Both the position numbers and the translations under genes were made by a program. The notes under the pieces were generated by a model. That model searched no databases, was not told the origin of the DNA, and was given only the letters and a program-made list of their open reading frames with translations. A DNA stretch of 64,000 nt from Tildeniella torsiva UHER 1998/13D (GTDB taxonomy: Bacteria; Cyanobacteriota; Cyanobacteriia; Phormidesmidales; Phormidesmidaceae), in NCBI GenBank assembly GCA_019358835.1, contig JAHHIH010000006.1:62001-126000 (forward strand). Reading direction: 5' to 3'. Positions within the stretch are counted from its first letter, which is position 1. The number at the start of each line of letters is the position of its first letter. This document shows, one piece after another, positions 17,447-21,523 of this stretch.

Positions 17447-17875
17447 CTAAACCTTAACCAGTACCTGATCGCCTTCAACTTTGGCCTCAAAGGTCTCCAG
17501 AGGCTCCCGCGCTGGGCCAGAGTCAACGGTGCCGTCTGGGTTGAAGTTGCTGGCGTGACAAGGGCAAGCAAACAGGTTTTGATCGCCATTCCAGGCTACA
17601 GTACAGCCTGCGTGGGTGCAGACCGCACTCACAGCAATCAATGAATCTGGAGCGTTGGGGTCGCGGATGACCGCCACGTTTTTACCCTGCAACTTCTCAT
17701 TGGCTAGACTGCCCTGGGCATCGAGGTCAGCGACCGTACCCAGGGGAACAAACCCGCCATCGGCTCCCGCCCCGGCTTCAGAGGGTGAGTCAGACTGGCA
17801 GGCTGCGATCGCCACCGGCAGCGAGCTAGCCAGCAGCCCCAGCGCCAGCAGATTGTTAAACTCTCGACGCTTCAT
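17447..17875 (-). CDS. Rieske [2Fe-2S] protein with Tat-type lipoprotein signal
   Basis: Small Rieske iron-sulfur protein of 142 residues. The cluster ligands are clear: CTHAGC near residues 86-91 and CPCHASNF near 103-110, with the usual spacing of about 15. The N-terminus MKRREFNNLLALGLLASSLPVAIAAC has an RR motif followed by a hydrophobic stretch and a lipobox-like IAAC, so export by Tat and lipid anchoring are likely. It is not PetC, because the transmembrane anchor and the length differ. It sits 15 bases after the CobW gene. The redox partner is unknown. Confidence 0.85.
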   Translation of the reverse strand: MKRREFNNLLALGLLASSLPVAIAACQSDSPSEAGAGADGGFVPLGTVADLDAQGSLANEKLQGKNVAVIRDPNAPDSLIAVSAVCTHAGCTVAWNGDQNLFACPCHASNFNPDGTVDSGPAREPLETFEAKVEGDQVLVKV

Positions 17876-17890
17876 AGGCTGTATTTTCCT

Positions 17891-19051
17891 CTATTTACCA
17901 AACCCCTGACCCCGCTTCGGCGAAGGAATCCCTAGGCAGGCGTTGAGCTGTTCGCGCAGGGTGTCGTGGTCGAGCCCCTGGCCAATCAGCACCAGCTGAT
18001 TCTTGGGTTCGCCCTTCCACTGGTCGTCGTCTAGGGAAAAGCGCTTGCCGCTGAGGTGAAAGATGTGGCGCTTGGGGCTTTCGTCAAACCAGAGAATGCC
18101 TTTGGCTCGAAACACCGACTCAGGCAGCAGGTTGTCGAGAAAGTGCTGAAACTTGCGAATGGCAAAGGGGCGATCGCTGGCAAACGACAGCGACGTGAAC
18201 CCATCGATGGCCAAGTGGTCAGAGTGGTGATGAGCATGATCGTGGGCATGGCCGTGATCGTCGTGGTCGTGCTCACAGTGGCCGTGGTCATGATCGCAAT
18301 TGGCATGATCGTGGGCCTCGTGGTCGTGGTGATCATGCCCGTGATGGTCGTGGTCATGCTCGGCCTCAGTGCTTTCGCCGCCAAAGTATTTGTCTGACTC
18401 AAACAGCCCCACGCTGAGAATCAGCGGCAGAGGCACCTGTGACTTAGTGGTGCGCAGAATTCTGGCCCCCTCTTTGACATCGCGAATCTTGACCTCCAGC
18501 AGATCGAGATCGGCATCATCGACCAAGTCGGCTTTGTTGAGCAAGATAATGTCGCCGTAGGCAATTTGATTGTGGGCCGCCTGGCTGTTGAAGAGATCCA
18601 GGCTGTAGTTTTCGGCATCCACCACGGTGACGATCGAGTCGAGCCGGGTCAGGTCGCGCAGCTCGGTGCCCAAGAAAGTGAGGGCAATGGGCAGGGGGTC
18701 GGCTAGCCCCGTGGTTTCTACTACTAAGTAATCAATTTTGTCCTGGCGCTCCAGCACTTTATACACCGCTTCCATCAGGTCGTTGTTGATGGTGCAGCAG
18801 ATGCAGCCGTTGCTGAGTTCGACCATCGTGTCATCGCTGTTCTCGGTGGCGATCAGCAGGTCGTTGTCGATGCCGATTTCGCCAAACTCGTTCACCAGCA
18901 CGGCGGTTTTGAGCCCTTCCTGGTTGGCCAAAATGTGGTTGAGCAGTGTGGTTTTGCCGCTGCCCAAAAAGCCGGTGATGATGGTGACGGGCAGACCGTG
19001 TTTGATGTCATCCATGGCCTGGGGCTGGATGGGGGGCGCAGCGGTAGACAT
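17891..19051 (-). CDS. CobW/COG0523 GTPase metallochaperone with His-rich loop
   Basis: GTP-dependent metal chaperone, 386 residues. Walker A is GFLGSGKTT at 27-35, the metal-binding CICC motif is at residues 83-86, and the guanine-specificity motif is NKAD. A long His/Asp-rich insert (about 232-285, mostly HDH and HDHD units) should bind several Zn, Co or Ni ions. The C-terminal CobW domain ends with LVLIGQGLD. Members with this layout deliver or store zinc (ZNG1/YeiR type) or cobalt; which metal cannot be read here. First gene of a minus-strand set that runs through Rieske, HIT-like and dtd. Confidence 0.9.
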   Translation of the reverse strand: MSTAAPPIQPQAMDDIKHGLPVTIITGFLGSGKTTLLNHILANQEGLKTAVLVNEFGEIGIDNDLLIATENSDDTMVELSNGCICCTINNDLMEAVYKVLERQDKIDYLVVETTGLADPLPIALTFLGTELRDLTRLDSIVTVVDAENYSLDLFNSQAAHNQIAYGDIILLNKADLVDDADLDLLEVKIRDVKEGARILRTTKSQVPLPLILSVGLFESDKYFGGESTEAEHDHDHHGHDHHDHEAHDHANCDHDHGHCEHDHDDHGHAHDHAHHHSDHLAIDGFTSLSFASDRPFAIRKFQHFLDNLLPESVFRAKGILWFDESPKRHIFHLSGKRFSLDDDQWKGEPKNQLVLIGQGLDHDTLREQLNACLGIPSPKRGQGFGK

Positions 19052-19798: not shown

Positions 19799-19970
19799 TA
19801 ATGAAATGCAGCGCCAGCGACAAACCTTGCATCTTCACAAGGGGCGTTCATCCGTCCGCTGCCATGAGGTGTTAGCTGGCTTCTGCCTTTGAATGCCTCT
19901 TCAAAACTATGCTTTATTCGGCTTACTTGCTTACTACCGTTCATACTTCAGTTCTTTAGGCAATATCAGA

Positions 19971-20558
19971 ATGTCCAATGAAGTGGAGAAGTGGCCTGAA
20001 TCTATAGAGAGATGGTCAGAGACAGAAGACTTGTGCCAGTTCCTCAGTCGCTTTCACGATTGGCATGATGACTTTGGATATAGTCGTTCATCTTTACGAG
20101 CAGAACGACTCATGAGTCGTCTAATGGCATCTGTTGATATTCATATTGTCTCGGAACTTGAATCAGAAATAGATCAAAGGATATTGCAGCCCTTCAGCAA
20201 AAAAACTACCAATAAGAATCGGATGGAAATTTTCCAGAATTTACAACCTGATGCAGGTATTGAAGATGGTAAAGCGGGTGATTTGCCAACCGAACATCCA
20301 GCAGAAATTTGGAAAGCGCTTTGGATAATCAGGCTAGCGTTTACGCACTCTGACGGTTACGTTGATCGATTGGAAGAGAGAAATAAACCATTAGCGCAAA
20401 GCGCGCAACGAGTGTTTAAGGTCAGTATCTCGGACGATAGCTTTATAAGAATCCCCCAAGGGCATCCAATGTCGGCTCATATGGCTCGTTTACGTTTAAC
20501 ACGTGCGCTAGGAACATTAGATCCTTGGTTTGATGATCGAGTAAGCCGGATTATATAA
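19971..20558 (+). CDS. Hypothetical soluble protein, low-GC orphan
   Basis: 195 residues, not recognised. It is acidic and helical, rich in Glu, Arg and Trp in the first third (SIERWSETEDLCQFLSRFHDWHDDF), with no membrane segment, signal or cysteine motif. Base composition is about 43-47 % GC in the stretches counted, against roughly 60 % around it. Its codons use many A/T third positions, and no HIP1 octamer occurs within it. This suggests recent acquisition. The ATG at 19971 was chosen; an ORF extension to 19893 is possible. No mobile-element gene is next to it. Confidence 0.6.
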   Translation: MSNEVEKWPESIERWSETEDLCQFLSRFHDWHDDFGYSRSSLRAERLMSRLMASVDIHIVSELESEIDQRILQPFSKKTTNKNRMEIFQNLQPDAGIEDGKAGDLPTEHPAEIWKALWIIRLAFTHSDGYVDRLEERNKPLAQSAQRVFKVSISDDSFIRIPQGHPMSAHMARLRLTRALGTLDPWFDDRVSRII

Positions 20559-20632: not shown

Positions 20633-21523
20633 TCAGTCCAACAAACGAGTTACCGCCGCGTTGTATTCCTGGTAAGCCTTGACGCCGGTTAGGGTCTCTA
20701 GCCGTTCGCCGTTCTTAAAAAACATTACCGCAGGGATTCCCTTTAGCTCAAATCGCTTGGTGATCTGCCGATTGGCATCAAAGTCGATCTTTCTCACCAT
20801 GACCGAATCGCCATAAGTTTCAGCCAGTTTATCGATCGCAGGCGTCACCTGCTTGCAAGAGCCACACCAAGACGCCATGCAATCGACTACCAGCAACGGT
20901 TCGCTGGCCAACAGCGCATCGAGTTCTGCCTCATCGCGAATTAGTTTAGCGGCACCCGTGTCTTCTTGGCCGAGCTGAGCCAAAGCACTGGTCACCTCCG
21001 CAAACGACAGGCTGGCATTAATAGTGGCAAGCTGCGATCGCTGCTGATAGTTCTCAAGCAACGGCTCTAACGACCGCTGAAAGCCCTCTAAACGCTCTCG
21101 AATAGCGGAAATTGGCGGCTTTTCGCTACTTTCGTTTAAGAGGCGAATGATTAAAAACTCAGGCGGCGCTTTGAGGTAGGCCACCGTCGCTGGCGGTTGC
21201 CCCACCGCTGCCCACCACTCATCGAACGCCTGGGCTTGAGCCAGCGATCGCGGAAACCCATCCAAAACCCAGCCTTTGAGCATAGTATCGGGCTGCTCAA
21301 ACCGCTTGCGGATCAACTTCATGGCCAACCCATCGGGAATCAGCTCGCCCGCATCCACGTAGGGACGTGCTTCAACGCCGATCGCCGTCTCGGCGGCGAT
21401 CGCCCCTCGAACCAGCTCGCCCATAGAAACGTGAGGTACCTGCCAGCGCTCGGCTAATGCGATCGCCTGCGCGTCAACCCCCACCCCAGGAGGCCCTAAA
21501 AGGATAAATTGCTTAGGTTTCAT
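20633..21523 (-). CDS. Adenylate-kinase-like / thioredoxin fusion protein
   Basis: 296 residues in two parts. Residues 1 to about 185 follow adenylate kinase: LLGPPGVGVDAQ at the P-loop, a VPHVSMGELVRGAI NMP-binding segment, DAGELIPDG and GWVLDGFPRSLAQA. The Walker lysine is Val (canonical GxGKGT reads GVGVDA) and the LID insert is missing, so ATP-dependent phosphotransfer is unlikely. Residues about 195-296 are a thioredoxin: WCGSCK active site and the cis-proline in KGIPAVMFFKNG. CGSC differs from the usual CGPC. Possibly a redox protein tethered to a nucleotide-binding domain. Confidence 0.8.
   Translation of the reverse strand: MKPKQFILLGPPGVGVDAQAIALAERWQVPHVSMGELVRGAIAAETAIGVEARPYVDAGELIPDGLAMKLIRKRFEQPDTMLKGWVLDGFPRSLAQAQAFDEWWAAVGQPPATVAYLKAPPEFLIIRLLNESSEKPPISAIRERLEGFQRSLEPLLENYQQRSQLATINASLSFAEVTSALAQLGQEDTGAAKLIRDEAELDALLASEPLLVVDCMASWCGSCKQVTPAIDKLAETYGDSVMVRKIDFDANRQITKRFELKGIPAVMFFKNGERLETLTGVKAYQEYNAAVTRLLD

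Follow-up and report, generated by a model that had tools for sequence, protein, structure and literature searches.

Architecture and predicted structure of the fusion

The window, by which we mean the whole stretch of 64,000 nucleotides analysed here from Tildeniella torsiva UHER 1998/13D, carries a gene that joins an adenylate kinase (AK)-like part to a thioredoxin (Trx). The features of this AK-Trx fusion are as follows.

20633..21523, minus strand: AK-Trx fusion gene, an open reading frame of 296 amino acids plus stop
20972..21523, minus strand: putative pseudo-adenylate-kinase domain, about residues 1-184 (Pfam ADK, AlphaFold/Foldseek and residue comparison)
21464..21496, minus strand: degenerate P-loop GPPGVGVDAQA, residues 10-20, with Val16 at the position of E. 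coli Lys13
20636..20935, minus strand: thioredoxin domain, about residues 197-296 (Pfam Thioredoxin and constraint)
20855..20866, minus strand: CGSC redox motif, residues 220-223 (sequence)

The Pfam ADK profile matched residues 8-163 of the window protein with 115.5 bits (cut-off 26.8), and the Thioredoxin profile matched residues 201-286 with 76.3 bits (cut-off 23.5), the AK part being N-terminal and the Trx part following it. The reading frame and these matches bear out the preliminary description, which had placed an AK and a CGSC thioredoxin in one frame. We rejected an identity as NTRC, since Pfam shows no reductase domain in the protein. The top NCBIfam match of the AK part was NF002700 (162.3 bits, residues 5-183), under the 262-bit cut-off of that family, and the thioredoxin equivalog TIGR01068 scored 79.2 bits, under its cut-off of 96.8. 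The AlphaFold model was confident as judged by pLDDT (mean 89.6), and its pTM of 0.63 leaves the mutual placement of the two predicted domains unsure. In Foldseek searches, the top solved-structure matches of the model were adenylate kinases (4w5h, E value 9.8e-17), and the short-form AK of M. tuberculosis, 2cdn, was matched with a target TM-score of 0.82.

Catalytic residues, AMP side and constraint of the AK half

We took the roles of K13, R123, R156, D158, D159 and the AMP-side sites to be those given in the literature on E. coli AK. The alignment contained 38 distinct fusions, 42 unfused cyanobacterial AKs and E. coli AK, whose reference sequence matched PDB 1ake along its full length. Note that the 38 fusions include near relatives, so that counts among them are not independent, and that the 42 unfused AKs were chosen as best matches rather than sampled at random. 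Left out of the counts were L057 and its copy L083, which have an in-frame stop, as well as L115 and L095, which have no start and have lost the P-loop.

The Walker Lys (E. coli K13) was found in 0/38 fusions versus 42/42 unfused AKs, and the window protein has Val16 in its place. The earlier reading of the P-loop as GPPGVGVDAQ with Lys changed to Val was therefore confirmed, and the loss is common to all 38 fusions compared. Because these sequences come from many assemblies, sequencing error was rejected as its cause. The short-LID residues were similarly depleted in the fusions (R123 in 2/38, R156 in 0/38, D158 in 4/38 and D159 in 0/38); the window protein has E131, S133, K135 and P136 at these four positions. 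Taken with K13, none of the five catalytic residues was present in 32 of the 38 fusions and a single one in the other 6, whereas all five were present in 42/42 unfused AKs. T15 was kept in 2/38 fusions. Retention in the fusions was tested over the 61 positions whose conservation among unfused AKs reaches 95% or more; on the ATP side it averaged 0.34 (11 sites), below random sets of conserved positions (permutation p 0.006).

The preliminary description had also pointed to the missing LID insert. The insert is indeed absent, but 42/42 unfused AKs likewise have gaps at E. coli LID positions 132-134, indicating that its absence in the fusion is ordinary; we rejected it as a mark of inactivity. 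The unusual feature is the loss of the short-LID residues and not the missing insert. The cyanobacterial short-LID AK of NF002700 shares with the fusion the fold, by model, and the lack of the insert. The fusion differs from it in scoring below the family cut-off, in having lost the Walker Lys and the short-LID catalytic residues, and in the attached Trx. The genome of the window has a Lys-bearing, intact AK on another contig, so that the cell's AK activity would not depend on the fusion. The residue comparison supports the view that the AK half is a catalytically dead kinase; the preliminary description had proposed this, and both the missing residues and the intact AK elsewhere in the genome agree with it.

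Could the fusions instead be kinases of altered mechanism, in which a Lys shifted by one residue towards the C-terminus (GVKAQ) does the work? Such a Lys occurs in 13/38 fusions, too few for us to accept it as a substitute, and the position varies from fusion to fusion (K, R, E, A, N, D or S), being Asp in the window protein. Together with the retention of T15 in 2/38 and of R156 and D159 in 0/38 fusions, this makes a working altered kinase very improbable.

The constraint on the two halves was compared by Nei-Gojobori dN/dS among 10 genomes of the window's genus (45 pairs). Pooled values use all 45 pairs; medians drop pairs with dS outside 0.05-1.2, leaving 45 pairs for the fusion AK, 27 for the P-loop, 45 for residues 61-110, 42 for the fusion Trx, 24 for the canonical AK and 35 for the standalone Trx. 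The pooled dN/dS was 0.116 (95%, 0.087-0.149) for the AK part and 0.062 (95%, 0.034-0.099) for the Trx part. Within the fusion, the medians were 0.110 for the AK part, 0.224 for the P-loop, 0.065 for residues 61-110 and 0.062 for the Trx part, and among the unfused comparators they were 0.025 for the housekeeping AK and 0.016 for the standalone Trx. The AK half of the fusion is thus about four times looser than the housekeeping AK (median 0.110 vs 0.025), and the pooled values indicate that within the genus it is held at the protein level, more loosely than the enzyme.

This looser constraint is what would be expected if the AK half were a passenger that needs only to fold, in a gene kept for its thioredoxin while the AK part slowly erodes. 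In addition to the AK part evolving faster than both the Trx part and the housekeeping AK, the fusion clade sits on a long stem of 0.83 changes per site, and single copies outside the genus are damaged: L114 and L116 have deletions within the AK part, L115 has lost its start together with the P-loop, and L057 is interrupted by an in-frame stop. However, the within-genus dN/dS of 0.116, with an upper bound of 0.149, is far from 1, the fusion has the same length of 296 codons in all 10 sequences of the genus, and at 26 AK positions retention is 90% or higher in the fusions as well as in the unfused AKs. We therefore regard a mere passenger as unlikely. A scaffold role of the AK half is compatible with the continued constraint.

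On the AMP side, the preliminary description had stated that DGFPR and the NMP-binding part are kept. DGFPR is present in the window protein, but the AMP side is kept only in part: T31 is Met in 32/38 fusions, and R36, G85, R88 and Q92 are found in 25, 36, 34 and 37 of the 38, respectively. Retention over the AMP side was 0.69 (7 sites) versus 0.68 for other conserved residues (43 sites; p 0.31), indicating that this side is not preferentially kept. These figures bear on the proposal that the dead kinase is a nucleotide sensor, in which AMP or ADP would occupy the remaining NMP site and a change of shape would gate the thioredoxin. All four of R36, G85, R88 and Q92 are kept in 24/38 fusions, including 12/12 of the window's near clade, and residues 61-110 are the tightest AK stretch tested (dN/dS 0.065). 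Furthermore, unfused relatives adjoin genes for CBS-CP12, a protein known from PMC9406205 and PMC9514657, whose Microcystis form binds AMP according to excerpts of PMC9406205. Set against this are the equal retention of AMP-side and other conserved residues, the change of the base-contacting T31 to Met in 32/38 fusions and the lack of at least one of R36, G85, R88 and Q92 in 14/38. On this sequence comparison AMP sensing by the AK half is possible but not favoured, and we consider a sensor that gates the thioredoxin a doubtful explanation.

Thioredoxin half, unfused relatives and distribution

Judged by its motifs, the Trx half is an intact CxxC thioredoxin: CxxC was found in 38/38 fusions and the cis-Pro motif in 37/38. 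The active site reads WCGSC in 30 fusions, including that of the window, WCGPC, the canonical form, in 6, and WCSSC and WCGAC in one each. Since WCGPC is the site found in unfused relatives within the Trx set, the sites without Pro are probably derived in the fusions. In S. aureus thioredoxin, Pro to Ser/Thr changes made the protein more oxidising (excerpts of PMC6262485), suggesting by analogy that the fused Trx may have less reducing power than an ordinary one. Cyanobacterial TrxC resembles the fusion in having a non-canonical CxxC without Pro; its site is WCGLC, as given in the same excerpts of PMC6262485, as against WCGSC in 30/38 fusions and in the window protein, and we rejected an identity with TrxC on this difference. 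The window protein has Cys at residues 215, 220 and 223 only, all in the Trx part, and the AK part is free of Cys in 27/38 fusions. Without Cys, the AK half offers the attached Trx no disulfide as a target.

AK2 genes found alongside those for Trx and CBS-CP12 are relatives of the AK half. In four genomes of family f1 (G442, G391, G390 and G396), the order is AK2, a [2Fe-2S] ferredoxin of 98-100 amino acids, a Trx of 107 amino acids and CBS-CP12, and all four genomes also have the AK-Trx fusion. G133 (family f6) has the same cluster genes in a different order. Pfam assigned Fer2, Thioredoxin, and CBS with CP12 to the cluster genes scanned. AK2, Trx and CBS/CBS-CP12 follow one another with no ferredoxin match in G022 and G149 (family f7) and on the Nodularia spumigena plasmid pUHCC0039a; G022 and G149 were chosen for nearby AK and Trx matches, so that no frequency can be taken from them. 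AK2 keeps the Walker Lys in these eight cases and also in G531, where it adjoins a plain CP12 gene.

Among the best 30 Trx loci (1.5-kb flanks), a CBS-CP12 match was found in 10, a ferredoxin in 7 (one weak) and AK2 in 2. Seven further Trx loci comprised 3 with CBS-CP12 (2 of them with AK2) and 4 with Trx alone, and in three Nostocales records CBS-CP12 comes after Trx. It is plausible that the unfused cluster has an adenylate-redox role. CBS proteins are said to activate Trx in the literature on Arabidopsis CBSX. We dropped this idea, as PMC7921703 reports results that do not support it for FBPase, SBPase and NADP-MDH.

Several loci were noted besides, of which those with the AK2 cluster seem to merit separate study. 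Intact AK2, Trx and CBS-CP12, with a [2Fe-2S] ferredoxin in some but not all, lie at L117:1065-4139, L118:2476-4879, L119:388-2814, L120:681-3456, L121, L185:5998-8765, L216 and L217; the Nodularia spumigena copy of the cluster sits on a mobilizable plasmid. Trx adjoins CBS-CP12, in some cases with a ferredoxin and with no AK match in the DNA examined, at L099:4953-6235, L100:191-1485, L192, L201, L209 and L210. Several clusters (L117-L118, the upstream side of L099, and L185:3181-4950) are flanked by a protein with four CBS domains and a short protein with a recombinase domain, also in Nostocales, the Pfam assignment being for L118 only. At L184:2813-3803 (G531), a second-type AK is followed by plain CP12, which recalls the AK-CP12 link of Chlamydomonas ADK3.

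Of the 63 genomes from the window's cyanobacterial family, 37 gave matches to both AK and Trx. In a draw across the phylum, 2 of 386 genomes had both domains, both belonging to that family, and the fusion was found in 0/383 sampled phylum genomes outside it, with at most six candidates scored per genome and long reading frames with an AK match (e.g., 413 amino acids in G177) left out. Among named records, the fusion is present at 24 of 39 loci; the 39 loci belong to Leptolyngbya, Nodosilinea, Adonisia, Halomicronema, Phormidesmis, Phormidium tenue and unclassified filamentous cyanobacteria.

In the AK tree, for which housekeeping AKs served as outgroup, the fusions formed one clade (100/100) on the long stem (0.83). 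The fused AK joined the unfused f1 cluster AK2 (89/76 and 94/91, not starred) and then the f6 AK2 (96/95), apart from 19/20 rows labelled canonical. Note that L011, one of the 37 unfused AKs labelled canonical in the alignment, grouped with AK2. In the Trx tree, the fused Trx also formed one clade (100/99), which lies in a group (95/82) shared with the Trx of the four f1 clusters and with three standalone ones. The standalone Trx were nearest (96/76) and the cluster Trx came next; the Trx tree alone would not prove an origin from the cluster.

The fusion's own neighbourhood is different. No ferredoxin or CBS-CP12 match was found in the examined flanks of 30 fusion loci (L072-L095, L111-L116). 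In the window's own genome, CBS and CP12 matches lie on other contigs, and none was to a full-length CBS-CP12. The role of the cluster therefore carries over to the fusion as a hypothesis, and a link of the fusion to adenylate state and redox is suggested by the gene context of its unfused relatives alone. No gene flanking the window fusion recurs at more than 7 of the 30 other fusion loci, and for this reason we rejected deriving an operon function from these neighbours. Beside the fusion gene lies a 221-amino-acid reading frame with no Pfam match (19893-20558, plus strand). Elsewhere in the window, a small Rieske [2Fe-2S] protein by Pfam (17447-17875, minus strand), whose N-terminus resembles by eye an export or lipoprotein signal, is encoded next to a His-rich CobW-type GTPase (17891-19051).

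A scaffold reading of the fusion and its precedents

The best explanation, which we hold tentatively and put a little short of probable, is a family-specific protein in which a dead pseudo-AK serves as a recognition or scaffold domain for an intact CxxC Trx, and which arose from an AK2-Trx cluster. Its starting point would have been a duplicated AK2 and Trx pair of the AK2-(ferredoxin)-Trx-CBS-CP12 cluster. The two copies would then have been joined with loss of the intervening ferredoxin, which is present in some clusters, and phosphoryl transfer would have been lost after the fusion. The AK remnant would be a folded domain by which the WCGSC thioredoxin is brought to a particular partner, the candidates being carbon-fixation proteins that answer to adenylate or redox state; binding of AMP or ADP as a modulating input is possible. 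Against this explanation stand the looser constraint on the AK half, the broken copies, the position of the fusion outside the cluster, the standalone Trx as nearest relatives and the pTM of 0.63.

A more ambitious form, which we think decidedly unlikely, is a one-chain module in which the dead AK acts as a receptor of adenylate state that gates the Trx, derived from and replacing the cluster of AK2, ferredoxin, Trx and AMP-binding CBS-CP12 that would tune carbon fixation to energy charge and redox. The unfused AK2 cluster is among the closest known comparisons. The AK half of the fusion groups with its AK2 and the Trx half with the f1 cluster Trx; the cluster differs in consisting of separate genes, with Lys intact in all eight AK2, and the fusion locus is without such neighbours.

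Chlamydomonas ADK3 is an active AK. Like the fusion, it joins an AK to a Calvin-cycle redox-regulatory element, which is a disordered CP12-like tail in place of Trx (excerpts of PMC9406205). Human NME8/TXNDC3 and NME9 likewise join Trx to a nucleotide-kinase fold, which excerpts of PMC13256974 describe as generally considered inactive; they differ in having an NDPK fold, an N-terminal Trx, for which the same excerpts report no reducing activity, and a place in animal cilia. A fusion of a kinase fold with Trx thus has precedent in NME8/NME9, and one of AK with a CP12-like tail in ADK3. No publication on an AK-Trx fusion turned up among the titles and abstracts found in the open-access literature. 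In the paper found when looking for AK as a thioredoxin target in Synechocystis, 'adenylate kinase' occurs in a reference title only.

If the pseudo-AK steers the thioredoxin, the fusion would physically and directly tie adenylate metabolism to thiol redox in a phototroph. In addition, the unfused AK2/ferredoxin/Trx/CBS-CP12 cluster makes the long-debated way in which energy charge and redox act together in the control of CO2 fixation testable in named strains.
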